In this document: one piece after another, positions 48,107-54,881 of the stretch
Numbering within the stretch: the stretch's first letter is position 1
Layout: the number at the start of each line of letters is the position of its first letter
Assembly: GCA_944326815.1 (NCBI GenBank)
Contig: CALVFI010000014.1
Coordinates: forward strand, 62,001-126,000
Direction of reading: 5' to 3'
DNA from: an uncultured Rikenellaceae bacterium
GTDB lineage: Bacteria > Bacteroidota > Bacteroidia > Bacteroidales > Rikenellaceae
DNA: 64,000 nucleotides
The notes under the pieces: generated by a model
Seen by the model: only the letters and a program-made list of their open reading frames with translations
What the model was told of the DNA's origin: nothing
Databases searched by the model: none
Made by a program: the position numbers and the translations under genes

Positions 48107-48805
48107 ATGGGTAAGTATTTCGATATGCTGATGGAAGACGTGCGGATGAGAGAAGGTCTCTCCTCCTGCATGAACTGCGGCGTCTGTACAGGTGTCTGTC
48201 CCGCCGCCGAATTCTACTGCTATGATCCGCGGCAAATCGTCAACATCGTCCAAACGAAAGACGACGAGGCCATCGAACGCCTGATGAAAAGCGATACCAT
48301 CTGGTACTGCGGAGAGTGCATGTCCTGTCGTCCGCGCTGTCCACGTGGCAATACCCCCGGATACGTTATCCAGGCCTTACGGACACTCTCTCAGAAGCTG
48401 GGTTTTTTCGTAGAATCGGAAAAAGGACGGCAACAGTTGGCCCTCAAACGCACCATAGGAGAGAGCATCCTCCGCACGGGATTCTGCCTCTATCCCAAAC
48501 TGGTCGACCCGGAACGCCATCCCGAACAGGGCCCCGTCTGGAAATGGATCTTCGACCACGACCAGCAGGTCTACGAGCAATTCACCCCGGTATACCGGAA
48601 AGAGGGTTGTGGAGCACTGCGCAAAGTGGACGAACAGACCATGGAGGAGTTGCACCGCATCTTCGAAGTGAGCGGCGGCCAAGCCTTCTTTGACAACATC
48701 GAGGCATGCTCCGAACGAAAAGCCCGCGAAATGGGTTACGACGGTGCCAACGAGGCGTATTTCAACGACGTCTACACCACCAATAACGGGGAGCACTCCA
48801 ACTAA
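48107..48805 (+). CDS. Heterodisulfide reductase subunit C-like ferredoxin
   Basis: 232 residues from MGKYFDMLMEDVRM. Two [4Fe-4S] motifs: CMNCGVCTGVCP and CGECMSCRPRCP, each Cx2Cx2Cx3CP, as in HdrC, followed by a long helical C-terminal extension with no obvious family. It would pass electrons between HdrA and the HdrB-type subunit encoded next. A -7 element TAATTTTG is at 48067-48074. First gene of a five-gene operon. Confidence 0.88.
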   Translation: MGKYFDMLMEDVRMREGLSSCMNCGVCTGVCPAAEFYCYDPRQIVNIVQTKDDEAIERLMKSDTIWYCGECMSCRPRCPRGNTPGYVIQALRTLSQKLGFFVESEKGRQQLALKRTIGESILRTGFCLYPKLVDPERHPEQGPVWKWIFDHDQQVYEQFTPVYRKEGCGALRKVDEQTMEELHRIFEVSGGQAFFDNIEACSERKAREMGYDGANEAYFNDVYTTNNGEHSN

Positions 48806-48817
48806 CACTACGGAACA

Positions 48818-49903
48818 ATGAAAAGAAACAGTTGGCAGGAATACCAGAAAGAGATTGCGGACGACCATTATTTCTATGTCCGCAGTTGTATCCGGCAGAA
48901 TTTCTTCCCGGGGTCGGAGGCAGCATTTCTCAACATTCTGCGGAACGATCTGGGCCGCGATGTGGGGGAAGAGGCCCGACACACCTCCTGCACAGGCATC
49001 GGCTATCACTCGGATATCGTACCGTTGGAGACCATCATGACGGTCGTAGCCCGACAGTTCGCCATGATGACAGAGGCCGGATACGAACACTTCACCAGCT
49101 CATGCATCACCTCGTTCGGCATCTACTCTGAAATCCTCGAGACCTGGAAAGAGTTTCCCGAAACCGAAGAACGGACACGCGAATATCTCTATAAAGCTAC
49201 CGGACGTGAATTCAAAAAGCCCAAAAGTTTGGCCCACACCTCCGATATCATATTCCACCACCGGGAACAAATCGGCAAGCAAGCCGTACGTCCGCTGGTG
49301 AACGTCGAAACGGGAGAACCACTCAAAGTGGTCGAACATATCGGTTGCCACTATGCCAAACTCTTCCCCAAGAGCGGCATCGGAGGATCGGAATTTCCCT
49401 ATGTATTGGCCGGCATGATCGAATCATGGGGAGGCGAGGTGGTGGACTATCCCGAACGCCGGCACTGCTGCGGTTTCGGGTTCCGCAACTATCTTGTCCA
49501 GGCGAACCGGGGCTATTCGATCGCCAACTCCCAAAAGAAACTGGAATCTATGGCTCCCTATAAGCCCGATTTCATCGTTGCCAACTGCCCGGGATGTACC
49601 ATGTTCCTCGATAAGTGGCAATATGCCATCGCCGAAATGGAAGGGACGACCTATGGGCCGGACGGACAGGGAATACCCGTACTGTCCTATGAAGAGATGG
49701 CGGGGCTCGTGTTGGGTTACGACCCGTGGGAACTGGGCATGCAGATGCACCAAGTGGCTGTGGAGCCCCTTCTGGACAAGATGGGTGTCCGTTATGATCC
49801 GGCAGCCAAATACCTTGCCCGTAACGGCAAATATATCGGCCAACCCGAGGAGGCAGCCGTCAATCTCCGCTGCACCTCGCAACCAATTATCCGCAAGTTA
49901 TGA
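48818..49903 (+). CDS. Heterodisulfide reductase subunit B-like CCG protein, degenerate first domain
   Basis: 361 residues. The C-terminal CCG domain is complete (IGCHYAKL; RRHCCGFGF; VANCPGCTMF) and could bind one non-cubane [4Fe-4S] cluster, the site that reduces a disulfide in HdrB. The N-terminal copy is degenerate: RSCI, TSCTG and SSCITSF keep single Cys where HdrB has CC and CxxC. Only one catalytic cluster is therefore expected. Stop overlaps the next start by 4 nt. Confidence 0.85.
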   Translation: MKRNSWQEYQKEIADDHYFYVRSCIRQNFFPGSEAAFLNILRNDLGRDVGEEARHTSCTGIGYHSDIVPLETIMTVVARQFAMMTEAGYEHFTSSCITSFGIYSEILETWKEFPETEERTREYLYKATGREFKKPKSLAHTSDIIFHHREQIGKQAVRPLVNVETGEPLKVVEHIGCHYAKLFPKSGIGGSEFPYVLAGMIESWGGEVVDYPERRHCCGFGFRNYLVQANRGYSIANSQKKLESMAPYKPDFIVANCPGCTMFLDKWQYAIAEMEGTTYGPDGQGIPVLSYEEMAGLVLGYDPWELGMQMHQVAVEPLLDKMGVRYDPAAKYLARNGKYIGQPEEAAVNLRCTSQPIIRKL

Positions 49904-50901
49904 GTAAAAGAGTAATCGTCATAGGCGGCGGTGTAGCCGGCATGCAAACGGCAGCAACGCTCGCCGGACTGGGCATCCATCCCGTCATTATTGAAAAAGG
50001 GGATCGACTGGGCGGCAAGCTGCTGAACTGGCATAAACTTTTTCCCACGTTTACCCCTGCGGGAGAGGTGCTCGACACACTCCGTCGTCAGTTGAAAGAT
50101 GTGGAGATAATGACCAATACGGAGGTCAAAAGAATCGAGCAGAGCGGTGTAGTATTGAATGACGGACGTTTGCTGGTCTCAGATGCTGTAGTGGTTTGCT
50201 CCGGATTCGACATATTCCGCGCCGAAATCAAGGAGGAATACGGCTACGGTATTTACGACAATGTATACACAACGGTAGACATCGAACGGATGCTCAACGA
50301 AGGCAAAGTCCATACCGCAGATGGACACATCCCCGAACGCATCGCATTTTTGCACTGCGTAGGTTCTCGCGATGAAAAGGTGGGACAGAAACACTGCTCC
50401 CGAGTCTGCTGCATCACAGGTGTCAAACAGGCGATGGAATTGAAAGAGTTATTTCCACAGAGCGAAATCTATAACTTTTACATGGATATCCGAATGTTTG
50501 GTCCGGGCTACGAAGAGATGTATCGTCAGGCGCAAGAGGAGTTCAATATTCATTTCATCCGGGGGCGCATCTCAGAAGCCAGCGAAACGATCGACAAAAG
50601 GGTGCAGATCAAAGCTGAAGACACGCTGATCGGACGTCCGCTCAAAATGACCGTCGACATGCTGATTCTGATTGTCGGCATGAAAGCCGGAGCAAGTAAC
50701 GATCGATTTGCCGAAAATCGCGGCATAGAACTCTATCCGAGCCACTTCATACGTCCCCGCAACCAGTTCGTCGACAACATCTGCTCGAGTGCAGGCAACA
50801 TTTTCTACGCCGGAACGGTCACAGCCCCCAAAAATGTAGGCGAAAGCCTCAACGAAGGGGTGGCTGCCGCACTCCGTGTTTCGAAATACCTCGAAGATTG
50901 A
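49900..50901 (+). CDS. Heterodisulfide reductase subunit A-like flavoprotein (short form)
   Basis: 333 residues. FAD Rossmann motif VIGGGVAGMQTA at the N-terminus, IIEKGDRLGGKL, then the HdrA cysteine set HCVGSRDE and CSRVCCITGVKQA for a [4Fe-4S] cluster, and a C-terminal FAD motif NIFYAGTVTAPKNVGESLNEG. The terminal ferredoxin domains of full-length (about 650-residue) HdrA are absent; the separate ferredoxin-type neighbours may supply them. Confidence 0.88.
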   Translation: MSKRVIVIGGGVAGMQTAATLAGLGIHPVIIEKGDRLGGKLLNWHKLFPTFTPAGEVLDTLRRQLKDVEIMTNTEVKRIEQSGVVLNDGRLLVSDAVVVCSGFDIFRAEIKEEYGYGIYDNVYTTVDIERMLNEGKVHTADGHIPERIAFLHCVGSRDEKVGQKHCSRVCCITGVKQAMELKELFPQSEIYNFYMDIRMFGPGYEEMYRQAQEEFNIHFIRGRISEASETIDKRVQIKAEDTLIGRPLKMTVDMLILIVGMKAGASNDRFAENRGIELYPSHFIRPRNQFVDNICSSAGNIFYAGTVTAPKNVGESLNEGVAAALRVSKYLED

Positions 50902-50903
50902 CC

Positions 50904-51236
50904 ATGGTACAGTTCGGATACAACATCAGCCAGCCCCGCGCGATCAACATGGATAAAAACGACATGATGATCTCGCAGAAAATTCTGCGCACGATGCCGG
51001 AACTGCAGACCTGCATCGCTTGTGGAAGTTGTACGGCCACCTGTACGGCAGGTGCGATCACCTCGTTCAACTTCCGTAAGGTACATACCCTCGTACGACG
51101 CGGTGAATACAAAGGAGCCTACGAGGAGATGAACAAATGCATGCTCTGCGGCAAATGCCGGTTGAGTTGTCCTCGCGGAATCAATACACGCGGCGTGGTC
51201 ATGCTTATAAAACAAGAATTGGGAGAGTACCGATGA
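50904..51236 (+). CDS. Second HdrC-like 2x[4Fe-4S] protein
   Basis: 110 residues from ATG at 50904, two nt after the HdrA-like stop. Two cluster motifs, CIACGSCTATCTAG and CMLCGKCRLSCPRG, with HdrC-type spacing and connecting helices. The first motif has Thr where Pro usually follows the fourth Cys. It likely links the flavoprotein to the membrane subunit. Stop overlaps the next start (ATGA). Confidence 0.87.
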   Translation: MVQFGYNISQPRAINMDKNDMMISQKILRTMPELQTCIACGSCTATCTAGAITSFNFRKVHTLVRRGEYKGAYEEMNKCMLCGKCRLSCPRGINTRGVVMLIKQELGEYR

Positions 51237-53032
51237 TGAACTATTACGACCATTTCATATTGCCGTTTGCCATAGGCGTCACCGTACTTTTCACGGTGAT
51301 ACTTTATAAATGGATCAGGTGGTTCGTCCGGATGCCCCAAGAGGATCGGCGACTCGTTCTCCGCGGAATTCCTACTCGACAAACCCTGGGAGCCATAGGG
51401 GAGGTCTTCATGGAATCGCTCCTGCATCGACGCATCTGGCGAGTCAACCCGTTGTTGGGCTATATGCACACGAGCCTGGCATTCGGTTGGTTCCTGCTCA
51501 TTGCCGTGGGTTGGGTCGAGGCTTCACTCCAACTGCCAGGTGAAATCATTCCGCTCCATGCGCACGTCTTCTTCAAATTTTTTGCCCCCGAGGTCGATTA
51601 CGGCATCACAGGCGGTCTGTTGGGGAACATCATGGACCTATTGCTGCTGTTCGTTCTCTCGGGGGTGGCACTGGCCTGGTTCAAACGGATGCGCTCGAAA
51701 GCCCTTGGCATGCAGCGCACCACGAAACACGTGCTCGGCGACCGAATCGCTCTCGCAGCCCTCTGGTTCATCTTCCCGGCACGTCTCGTGGCCGAAAGCG
51801 CCACAAGCGGTCTGAAACACAGCACCACATTCCTTACAGGGAACCTCGGAGAGTGGATGGTCAATACGTTCGGCACAGAAGCCATCATGCACTTCTCTGT
51901 CTACGCTTGGTGGTTCTATTCGATCGTACTCGGCATATTCTTCGTTGCGATGCCTTTCTCGCGGTATATGCATATCTTCACGGAAATTCCACTAATCTTC
52001 CTGCGCCGTTACAAAGTACACAGTTACGAGAAGGCCAAAAGTTTCGACCGATTCCAGATCGAGGCCTGCTCGCGATGCGGCATCTGCATCGACCCTTGCC
52101 AATTGCAGAAAGATGCAGGAATCACGAACGTACAGTCGGTCTATTTCCTGCGCGACCGCCGATACAATCGGCTGACCCAAGAGGTAGCCTATAACTGTCT
52201 GATGTGCGGTCGCTGCGAAACCCGATGCCCGGTCGGTATCGAACTCAATACCCTTCGTCTGAATAGCCGTGAGAAATTTGCCGCCATGCCGGCCGACAAC
52301 CGATACGCTTACCTCTCCTCTGCGGCCGACCGCTCATCAGGCACAAGCAAAGTGGGTTATTTCGCAGGATGCATGACCCTGCTGACACCAAAAATCCTGC
52401 GCGCCATGGATGCCATATTCAAAGCGGCAGGCGAAGAGGTATGGTATGCCGACAAGGATGGAGGGGTGTGTTGCGGCCGTCCGCTGAAGCTCTCCGGAGA
52501 GGTAGAGGCTGCCCGGCGCATTATGGACTTCAACCGCGACCTATTCCGCAAACATGGTATCACCACACTGGTCACCTCGTGTCCGATCTGTCTGAAGGTC
52601 TTCCGCGAAGACTATCATCTGAAAGGCATCGAAGTACTGCATCATTCGCAATATATCCTCCGACTGATCCAACAGGGGCGTATCTGCGTAGAACATGGTC
52701 ACAACTCCTTTACCTATCACGATCCCTGCGAACTGGGACGCGGAAGCGGCATCTACGAAGAACCACGCGAAGTGATCTCCCAGATAGGCAGCCTACTGGA
52801 GGTCGATGAAAATCGAGAAAATGCTCTTTGCTGCGGCAGTAGCCTGGCAAACATCGCCATCAACGATGCCCAACAGAATCGGATCAGTCAGGCTTTGGCT
52901 CACGAACTGGCCGACACGGGAGCCGACACGGTCGTCACGGCCTGTCCGCTCTGCAAAAAAGCAATCGCCCGAAACGCTTCACAAGAGGTGAAAGATCTCT
53001 CGGAGGTGGTTGCCGAAGCTCTCGGTCAGTAA
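51233..53032 (+). CDS. HdrE-HdrD-like fusion: membrane cytochrome-type domain plus CCG reductase
   Basis: 599 residues. The N-terminal about 290 residues hold five or six membrane helices with several His positions, like HdrE/NarI-type b-haem subunits. Next are two [4Fe-4S] motifs (CSRCGICIDPCQ; CLMCGRCETRCPVG), then two complete CCG domains (GYFAGCM, GGVCCGRP, TSCPICLK; and HDPCELG, NALCCGSS, TACPLCKK). It is predicted to connect the menaquinone pool to a thiol/disulfide couple. It is the final gene; no classical T-tract terminator follows, only a stem at 53139-53169. Confidence 0.88.
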   Translation: MMNYYDHFILPFAIGVTVLFTVILYKWIRWFVRMPQEDRRLVLRGIPTRQTLGAIGEVFMESLLHRRIWRVNPLLGYMHTSLAFGWFLLIAVGWVEASLQLPGEIIPLHAHVFFKFFAPEVDYGITGGLLGNIMDLLLLFVLSGVALAWFKRMRSKALGMQRTTKHVLGDRIALAALWFIFPARLVAESATSGLKHSTTFLTGNLGEWMVNTFGTEAIMHFSVYAWWFYSIVLGIFFVAMPFSRYMHIFTEIPLIFLRRYKVHSYEKAKSFDRFQIEACSRCGICIDPCQLQKDAGITNVQSVYFLRDRRYNRLTQEVAYNCLMCGRCETRCPVGIELNTLRLNSREKFAAMPADNRYAYLSSAADRSSGTSKVGYFAGCMTLLTPKILRAMDAIFKAAGEEVWYADKDGGVCCGRPLKLSGEVEAARRIMDFNRDLFRKHGITTLVTSCPICLKVFREDYHLKGIEVLHHSQYILRLIQQGRICVEHGHNSFTYHDPCELGRGSGIYEEPREVISQIGSLLEVDENRENALCCGSSLANIAINDAQQNRISQALAHELADTGADTVVTACPLCKKAIARNASQEVKDLSEVVAEALGQ

Positions 53033-53250: not shown

Positions 53251-53323
53251 CGCGGGATGGAGCAGTTGGCAGCTCGTTGGGCTCATAACCCAAAGGTCGG
53301 AGGTTCGAGTCCTCCTCCCGCTA
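53251..53323 (+). tRNA. Initiator tRNA-fMet (CAU)
   Basis: 73 nt, cloverleaf folds fully, CCA not encoded. Initiator hallmarks: C1 opposite a non-pairing U72, A11:U24 in the D stem, and three consecutive G:C pairs (GGG/CCC) in the anticodon stem around CTCATAA. Anticodon CAU. The last three bases (C71, U72, A73) belong to the 33-bp direct repeat, so the integrated element reconstitutes this 3' end. Confidence 0.93.
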
Positions 53324-54881
53324 CTAAAGCGGACAATTCGAAAGAGTTGTCCGTTTTTTCTTTCCAAATATTTTTGTAATCGCCTGATATTGTGCGAAAT
53401 ATCTCGAATACTTTATTCTCTGAAATGGTTCGATAATTTCCTTTTTCTTTGTCCCATTCTATTCCTTGCGGATGCACCAGTTTTTGTATCTTTTGGCAAA
53501 GATCAAAATCGAACTTTCTCCACAAAGACCCTAATTCACAAGACATTGCAATAATAGACGAGGTATATTCTCCCAAGTTCGATAAATTTCCCTCGACCAT
53601 TTTCAGCTCTTTTTCCAAAGTCTTTTTTCGTTCCACCAGTTCCTCCAAAGCCACATCGAAAGTTTCCTTGTCAATATCATCAAAAGCAAACTTTTTACGT
53701 AGATTTCTAATTTTAGTATCTAGTACCTTAATTTGCTCACATAATTTTTCTTTGTCTCGATACGCATCCTCGTTTTTTTGCCTGAATTTGCGTTGGATAA
53801 CTTTTTGCAAAATATCTCTTAGTTCAACGGGAACAACATATTGCGATAATAAAGCTGCATATTTTTCATGCAGCTTATCGGCAAATACATTGGTCCCGCA
53901 TCCTTTGACATTACATTTATAATAACCTTTTTTAGTTTTGGATGCTGTATATCCGGTAAAAGGTTTATGATGATCCCTACACAAAACATGTCTTTTCAAG
54001 GGAAATTCAGGCGTCACCTGCCGCTGTTCGTAATGATCATGATTGCCAGCTAAATTTTCCTGTACCTTGTCAAAGATAGCCTGAGAAACCAGCTTCTCCT
54101 GCTTTCCGTCAATGATCCGATCCCCTAAAAGTTGATGCTGAATCTTTCCACAATAAAAAACATTACGAAATATCTCTGTCAATCGTTGTTTACATATTTT
54201 TAATCCACGAGCTTCCAATCTACGCTGTATCTCCACGTTGGATAAATTTTCATTGGCTTTCCATAAGAAAGCCTGTCTCAACAATTTTCCCGTAGCATTG
54301 ACCGTAATAACATGATTCTTTCCCTCTTTGCGAGTATCGTAGCCCATAGGAGGCTTACTGAACCATTCGCCACGTTCGAGACAGGCACGCATTCCCTCTC
54401 CACATTTATGGCGCCGCATGGCATTGTCAATATCAGCAAGAATGATTAAGATATTTTCTATAGCATCCGCTAAAAAATTATTTTGGTCAATCGGTTGATT
54501 AATGGACGACACGATAATGCCGCTCTTTTTCAATTTCGCTTTTGTCGTGATACCCGCAACGGAATTACGACTAAAACGGTCAAAATCATAAACAACGACA
54601 CGATTGATTTCAGGGTCTAATAAAATATCCGCAATCATACTTAGGAACAATTCACCTTCAACTTTCGCACTCTCATTTTTTGCTCCGTAATCATCTTTCT
54701 TGATTCGGATATTGTTACGTTGGCAAAATTCAATACATGCCTTACGCTGATTCTCCACAGAATAGTTCTTATTGTATTGTTCTGCCGTTGAAACCCTCGT
54801 CCATATAACCGCAACTTGTTCTTTCTGTGCAAGTCGCTTCTTAATTATTTCATCTTCTTTTATCTTTTTCTTTTTTATCAT
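53283..54881 (-). CDS. Large serine recombinase (3' end altered by integration)
   Basis: 532 residues. Resolvase catalytic domain (about 22-165) with the nucleophile Ser31 in TRVSTAEQ and DRFSRN. Recombinase domain (about 170-270, MGYDTRKEG). Zinc-ribbon-like part (LCRDHH ... YYKCNVKGC). Coiled coil (about 370-450, KLCEQIKVLDTKIRNLRKK). The final residues AGGGLEPPTFGL are antisense to the tRNA, so the present stop codon is chromosomal. The element's own tail probably lies at 62369-62445. Likely integrase/excisionase. Its start overlaps the stop of a 49-residue frame (ATGA). Confidence 0.9.
   Translation of the reverse strand: MIKKKKIKEDEIIKKRLAQKEQVAVIWTRVSTAEQYNKNYSVENQRKACIEFCQRNNIRIKKDDYGAKNESAKVEGELFLSMIADILLDPEINRVVVYDFDRFSRNSVAGITTKAKLKKSGIIVSSINQPIDQNNFLADAIENILIILADIDNAMRRHKCGEGMRACLERGEWFSKPPMGYDTRKEGKNHVITVNATGKLLRQAFLWKANENLSNVEIQRRLEARGLKICKQRLTEIFRNVFYCGKIQHQLLGDRIIDGKQEKLVSQAIFDKVQENLAGNHDHYEQRQVTPEFPLKRHVLCRDHHKPFTGYTASKTKKGYYKCNVKGCGTNVFADKLHEKYAALLSQYVVPVELRDILQKVIQRKFRQKNEDAYRDKEKLCEQIKVLDTKIRNLRKKFAFDDIDKETFDVALEELVERKKTLEKELKMVEGNLSNLGEYTSSIIAMSCELGSLWRKFDFDLCQKIQKLVHPQGIEWDKEKGNYRTISENKVFEIFRTISGDYKNIWKEKTDNSFELSALVAGGGLEPPTFGL
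53321..53353 (+). repeat. Left direct repeat (attachment site) of integrated element
   Basis: 33-bp segment identical to 62446-62478. It starts at C71 of the tRNA and covers most of its terminator hairpin. The base before (G versus T) and the bases after (T versus C) differ between copies, which fixes the limits. Confidence 0.9.
53330..53359 (+). terminator. tRNA terminator, element-supplied copy
   Basis: Stem CGGACAATTC / GAGTTGTCCG capped by a GAAA tetraloop, followed by six T. The distal copy at 62451 is longer by AAAG/CTTT pairs because one C is missing here after the repeat. Confidence 0.8.

Follow-up and report, generated by a model that had tools for sequence, protein, structure and literature searches.

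A constrained three-cysteine N-terminal site in an HdrB-like subunit of a probably menaquinone-linked Hdr operon from Bacteroidales

The HdrB-like protein encoded in a 64,000-nucleotide stretch of DNA from an uncultured Rikenellaceae bacterium (the window; contig CALVFI010000014.1) combines a complete C-terminal CCG cysteine set with an N-terminal set that keeps three of five cluster ligands. An earlier note on this DNA had called the N-terminal domain degraded. Our comparisons contradict that description: the N-site is constrained as strongly as the C-site, the pattern recurs in sHdrB1-type proteins of other phyla, and the N-domain is better conserved than the corresponding CCG part of the membrane fusion encoded in the same operon (median identity 60% vs 43% over 12 wide loci). 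Judged from alignment and tree, the altered N-site appears to be a fixed signature of a subfamily that includes proteins of sulfur-oxidation gene clusters, and the window protein is very probably a B1-type (sHdrB1-like) HdrB subunit. The membrane-linked Hdr complex of this gut bacterium is uncharacterised, and no published description of the Bacteroidales operon, or of a reduced N-set in HdrB1, was found in the open-licence literature.

According to the ORF list and Pfam matches, the HdrB-like gene comes second in a compact run of five + strand genes, and overlaps between operon genes, where present, are one to four bases long. The genes and the two cysteine sites lie as follows in the window.

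48107..48805, + strand: HdrC-like subunit (C1 type) with two [4Fe-4S] motifs (ORF, profile matches, alignment)
48818..49903, + strand: HdrB-like subunit, probably B1-type, 361 aa, ATG start (ORF, Pfam, alignment, tree, fold)
48887..49117, + strand: DNA coding for the altered N-site, from codon 24 to codon 100 (translation, family alignment, entropy)
49346..49597, + strand: DNA coding for the full C-terminal CCG set, from codon 177 to codon 260 (translation, Pfam, family alignment)
49900..50901, + strand: short HdrA-like flavoprotein, 333 aa, with an FAD domain (ORF, Pfam, PDB match)
50898..51236, + strand: HdrC-like 2x[4Fe-4S] ferredoxin (ORF, Pfam; listed with a TTG start, exact start unsure)
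51236..53032, + strand: membrane fusion of NarI-like helices, two [4Fe-4S] motifs and two complete CCG sets (ORF, Pfam, structure comparison)

The HdrC-like reading frame opens at GTG 48089, with ATG 48107 as the likelier start, and its eight motif cysteines and C133 are kept in 131/131 aligned sequences. The HdrA-like flavoprotein matches PDB 6tjr, which we take to be Hyphomicrobium sHdrA, from end to end; its C153, C166, C170 and C171 are kept in 123/123 aligned sequences, and the eight cysteines of the 2x[4Fe-4S] ferredoxin in 118/118. The fusion begins at ATG 51233 or 51236, inside an ORF listed from 51137. A sigma-70 promoter scan gave no site, which is uninformative here because Bacteroidota promoters are of another type. 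A tRNA-Met (CAU) gene (53251-53324) lies directly downstream of the operon, and a convergent serine recombinase gene with Resolvase and Recombinase domains (53283-54881) overlaps it with its own 3' end; the arrangement resembles that of an element inserted at a tRNA gene.

Pfam recognises the CCG domain once in the HdrB-like protein, at residues 173-265, with no match in the N-terminal half. Aligned with M. thermolithotrophicus HdrB (5odc_B) and full-set homologues, C24, C58, T59, C96 and S99 correspond to Cys9, Cys41, Cys42, Cys78 and Cys81, so that three of the five N-terminal ligands are kept (C24, C58, C96) and Thr59 and Ser99 replace Cys42 and Cys81. The gap placement by phmmer near C58 is not unique, and the position is settled by the CCG/CTG register against full-set homologues. 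The peptides RSCI, TSCTG and SSCITSF are all present in the ORF, and the C-terminal set is complete (5/5: C177, C217-C218, C257xxC260). The reduced N-set and full C-set described earlier are thereby confirmed by ORF, Pfam and alignment, and the 133 relatives all share them; the alignment with HdrB that the earlier note proposed gave exactly two replaced N-ligands and an intact C-terminal five. With 3/5 and 5/5 cysteines, the protein departs from the two complete five-Cys CCG sets that define HdrB, and it misses the cut-offs of the curated HdrB equivalogs NF041780 (131.5 of 450 bits) and TIGR03288 (123.7 of 345.15). The predicted structure has the HdrB fold, superposing on 7bkb_B (Z 28.4, rmsd 2.7, 288 aligned residues), 5odc_B (Z 27.3, rmsd 2.9, 285 aligned) and EtfD 9ojn (Z 15.5, rmsd 3.1, 230 aligned), with a mean pLDDT of 74.7 and a pTM of 0.80, and with pLDDT below 50 at 178-195 and 217-233, around the C-site.

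Conservation was assessed in 144 loci encoding 133 distinct Bacteroidales proteins, which are 56-93% identical to the window HdrB (lowest pair 52%). C24, C58 and C96 are cysteine in 133/133 of these proteins. The two replaced positions never carry cysteine: position 59 is Thr in 126, Ser in 5 and Gly in 2, and position 99 is Ser in 130 and Thr in 3. R22, R26, Q27, H64, T98 and G101 are also invariant. Mean entropy is 0.201 bit for the N-site motifs and 0.189 for the C-site motifs, against 0.992 for the remaining N-domain, and just 5/20000 random triples of N-domain blocks were as conserved as the N-site; this null draws random blocks, ignores the general conservation of active sites, and so speaks for constraint, not function. 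HdrB is also the most conserved subunit of the operon (median identity 61%, vs 46 for HdrC, 43 for HdrA and 42 each for ferredoxin and fusion; 12 wide loci that share one gene order).

The N-terminal pattern C, SC[T/G], CxTS is found outside this family as well: in the HdrB1 of a Picosynechococcus PCC 7003 plasmid (L175), in an Acidithiobacillus ferrooxidans plasmid protein (L176) near a GcvH-like gene, and in the type II sHdrB1 of two genomes of the same phylum as the window (L174, identical to L021, and L022). By comparison, 44/44 other HdrB homologues examined keep both full CCG sets; these comprise 27 from the phylum search, 16 chosen from Bacteroidota genomes and the cyanobacterial HdrB2 of L175. 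In a 49-row tree, one branch with 100/100 support splits 27 reduced from 22 full rows, although long branches meet in the tree, the root is a midpoint root and the cyanobacterial row is not securely placed (94/78). We introduce the name B1-type HdrB clade for proteins with the N-site C, SC[T/S/G], CxT[S/T] on the reduced side of this tree, and the window HdrB has both features. In the cyanobacterial plasmid, the operon at 8227-13967 of L175 reads HdrC1-B1-A-C2-B2 plus a type-III-SQR-like flavoprotein. The sHdrB1-like gene of Acidithiobacillus (L176, 787-4490), seen in three plasmid records, stands alone, with GcvH-like and hemerythrin genes close by. The SQR link hinted at by the cyanobacterial neighbour was dropped: the window genome gave no SQR match, and 19/61 relatives gave any, mostly weak.

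The family is common in Bacteroidales. It matched in 36/61 relative genomes, and in the order as a whole 130/296 genomes had some HdrB match, 113 of them listed at E below 1e-100, with family fragments in two more. In the phylum sample, 81/296 genomes had an HdrB match, and besides the window genome none of the matches listed exceeded 31% identity, so that no close family member is apparent there. The best 80 of 565 loci are all titled Alistipes, Rikenellaceae or Bacteroidales. Two candidate stretches came from viral contigs, and neither was a relative. The five genes stand in the window order at 90/144 loci, and most of the others are loci of about 4 kb or at contig ends. One locus (L167, 5983-10866) holds all five genes reordered, as HdrC, ferredoxin, fusion, HdrB and HdrA, which shows that the gene set travels as a unit.

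No sulfur gene, substrate gene or partner gene was seen adjoining the operon. Across 19 wide loci, no flanking family recurred outside the operon except DUF134 and a NifX-like protein at three paralogue loci (L163, L164 on the minus strand, and L166), where second HdrC-HdrB pairs at about 6.3-8.1 kb stand without HdrA, ferredoxin or fusion. These pairs adjoin DUF134 and a NifX-like FeMo-cofactor-domain protein (PF02579), and L166 also has ferredoxin-containing MinD-type ATPases; the pairs may be paralogues for metal-cofactor or Fe-S work. At another locus (L170, 4148-8108), a class-V aminotransferase resembling cysteine desulfurases and a Cys-rich protein are encoded upstream of an HdrC-HdrB pair.

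The earlier note had also read both CCG sets of the HdrD-like fusion as intact, and this holds: the fusion ORF has two Pfam CCG matches, with the N-set cysteines kept in 87/87 aligned sequences and the C-set in 85/87, both misses being proteins that end at contig ends. The CCG part of the fusion model resembles HdrB (Z 20-21). Against EtfD 9ojn the whole model gives Z 24.9 over 477 aligned residues with an rmsd of 19.2, indicating that the domains are placed differently, and the membrane part matches NarI 1y5i_C with Z 8.3 and rmsd 5.3 over 179 residues, which is weak for a helical membrane part. Conserved His97, His111 and His279 (numbering of the 631-aa ORF) are our guess for heme ligands. 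The EtfD/NarI-like layout makes a menaquinone link likely, and the five-gene Hdr complex is probably menaquinone-linked on this ground. A second, classical two-cluster disulfide site within the fusion is possible, given its cysteines.

What the altered site might do can be framed by published work. In methanogen HdrB, according to PMC13083937, cleavage of the heterodisulfide is homolytic and involves two noncubane clusters; in each of them the movement of a bridging cysteine (81 or 234) liberates the iron that acts. The nearest solved case of a changed N-site is EtfD, described in the same paper, with Thr at the Cys42 equivalent and four remaining cysteines that form a linear [3Fe-4S] cluster; His583 of this N-loop is a ligand to the C-terminal cluster and renders it non-catalytic, and the enzyme passes electrons to menaquinone. 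The window HdrB retains just the second bridging cysteine (C260, corresponding to Cys234), and two-iron cleavage inside it is therefore unexpected. From the loss of Cys81 and this mechanism, it is plausible that its chemistry should differ from that of two-cluster HdrB, as the earlier note had proposed. We found no verified two-cluster enzyme with the same cysteine pattern; EtfD, which is verified as a two-cluster protein, shares the Cys-to-Thr change and keeps the last cysteine. As a caution, M. acetivorans HdrB2 is reported in PMC5296606 to have about 5 Fe per protein and yet to be oxidised by CoM-S-S-CoB, which speaks against a strict rule that one cluster means another chemistry. The linear [3Fe-4S] cluster of EtfD has a four-Cys N-site, and the family N-site has three cysteines. 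The window N-loop reads C96-I-T98-S99, with an invariant Thr at the His position. With Thr there and Ser/Thr at the fourth Cys position, the C-cluster may stay accessible to substrate, unlike that of EtfD.

By its ligand pattern, the C-site would hold a noncubane [4Fe-4S] cluster with all five ligands present, and the N-site is rebuilt on C24, C58 and C96 together with Thr98, Ser/Thr99, Arg22, Arg26 and His64. In the mechanism that we propose, a thiol, persulfide or disulfide sulfur would bind iron at the putative C-cluster, bridged by C260 (HdrB Cys234), while the N-site would no longer split a disulfide via a second catalytic iron. Its Arg, His and Thr residues could instead bind the second substrate half, or the site could carry a three-Cys cluster that relays electrons only, like the linear [3Fe-4S] cluster of EtfD. 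Electrons would pass from the sulfur substrate at HdrB1 to HdrC, to HdrA (FAD, [4Fe-4S]), to the ferredoxin and through the fusion, with its two cubanes and probable heme b, to menaquinone. The thiol-to-menaquinone role on its own we put a little short of even, and as the explanation of the whole we lean, by a modest margin of belief, towards a B1-type HdrB with a rebuilt N-site in a thiol-to-menaquinone complex.

Several other readings were weighed. That the N-domain decayed recently in the window genome alone is practically out of the question: the missing cysteines themselves suggest it, and nothing further was found to do so, while 133/133 relatives have the identical Cys pattern, the reading frame is intact and the N-domain is strongly conserved, and one-gene decay was rejected on the common pattern. 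The model of the earlier note in full, with the N-domain as dead weight, HdrB as a mere electron relay and the two-cluster pair of the fusion as the sole disulfide site, seems to us rather unlikely. It draws on the conservation of all ten fusion CCG cysteines (87/87 and 85/87), on the cyanobacterial operon, where a reduced HdrB1 is accompanied by an HdrB2 with full sets, and on EtfD, whose reduced N-site serves electron transfer only (PMC13083937). It sits poorly, however, with N-site motifs that match the intact site in conservation, with an HdrB more conserved than the CCG part of the fusion, with HdrC-HdrB pairs lacking a nearby fusion gene in 5/19 wide loci, and with sHdrB1, which has the same N-pattern and is termed the proposed catalytic subunit in PMC11582611. 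Because the HdrB site is better conserved and HdrC-HdrB pairs exist without a nearby fusion, we rate a disulfide site in the fusion second. Improbable, in our estimate, is an N-site that is empty or occupied by a structural metal (zinc) and just shapes the pocket: three cysteines with a hydroxyl or His suit zinc, and older EXAFS work reporting zinc in HdrB is described, and doubted, in PMC5861303, but the homologous sites of HdrB and EtfD hold Fe-S clusters and the HdrB structure is without zinc according to the same source.

A true sHdr system of the Hyphomicrobium or Acidithiobacillus kind, oxidising lipoate-bound cytoplasmic sulfane sulfur to sulfite, is more improbable still. The C1-B1-A order and the N-pattern are those of sHdrB1, and the match of the HdrA to PDB 6tjr is full-length, yet the partner genes do not fit. 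Type I and type II systems are defined by syntenic shdrC1B1AHC2B2 and by syntenic shdrC1B1AHB3 with etfAB, respectively, in PMC11582611. The window operon has C1, B1 and A, with a ferredoxin and a fusion in place of H, a separate C2 and B2, and it is without the etfAB and B3 that L174 has. ORFs and Pfam revealed no EtfAB genes or sHdr 'hyp' gene in the operon, which is also without the lipoate-binding protein LbpA. The window genome (83% complete) has no TusA match and one GCV_H match (8.5e-45), on another contig, that scores as ordinary GcvH, GcvH and LbpA being told apart here by score and genomic place alone; the HdrB-positive relative G040 (98% complete) has no GCV_H match. Among 31 relatives, TusA occurs in 7/18 HdrB-positive vs 6/13 HdrB-negative genomes and GCV_H in 17/18 vs 10/13 (one of the 18, G048, has an HdrB fragment only), so neither carrier tracks HdrB. 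We accordingly rejected sHdr proper, whose gene order and signature fit and whose partner genes do not. The same-phylum locus L174 (159-9595) carries genes for DsrE, a GcvH-like protein, C1, B1, A, an unassigned protein, an HdrD-like protein and ETF beta and alpha, and by its gene content fits the published type II definition; inspected by eye, its HdrD-like protein has no Cys in the first CCG region.

Returning to the B1-type HdrB with a rebuilt N-site, the membrane-anchored, sHdr-like complex of these gut Bacteroidales probably connects a sulfur or thiol substrate to the menaquinone pool, a link so far unrecognised, and it is common in the order (113/296 genomes). The shared signature suggests that the two-cluster mechanism of methanogen HdrB, though assumed for sHdrB1, is not the one by which this proposed catalytic subunit works. 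The fixed three-Cys site is a stringent test case for the amount of change that the CCG fold tolerates while still carrying out sulfur chemistry. A bolder version, which we hold to be doubtful, makes the N-site a cluster type new for CCG proteins, formed by three cysteines and Ser/Thr99, open or completed by substrate and facing the intact noncubane cluster, with persulfide or mixed-disulfide redox chemistry that delivers electrons to menaquinone and uses neither lipoate nor TusA as a carrier. If true, the sHdr-like systems would gain a third kind, anchored in the membrane and present in about 113/296 sampled Bacteroidales genomes.

Set against known systems, the window protein shares with methanogen HdrB (5odc_B, 7bkb_B) the fold and the complete C-terminal CCG set, and differs from it in the replacement of two of five N-ligands. 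The HdrB/SdhE-like proteins of Bacteroidota are likewise homologous two-domain CCG proteins, but have both sets full. Mycobacterial EtfD (9ojn) likewise carries Thr in place of Cys42, and its NarI-cubane-CCG layout is also that of the window fusion; however, it keeps a fourth N-site cysteine (584), whereas the window HdrB has three cysteines and Ser or Thr at 99, and its His583 falls, by motif, at Thr98. The Picosynechococcus PCC 7003 HdrB1 is 41% identical over 90% of the query and has the reduced N-set, the full C-set and the C1-B1-A order, yet where the window has the membrane fusion, its operon encodes a type-III-SQR-like flavoprotein and, as a protein of its own, an HdrB2 with both sets full. 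With sHdrB1 the window HdrB has in common the C1-B1-A order, the N-site C, SC[T], CxTS and the same side of the tree, at 27-31% identity; the three sHdrB1-type sequences compared carry Asp at 257 and a C-set of 4/5 Cys, unlike the window family, and the window operon differs from sHdr in having no hyp, LbpA, B2 or B3, or EtfAB genes.
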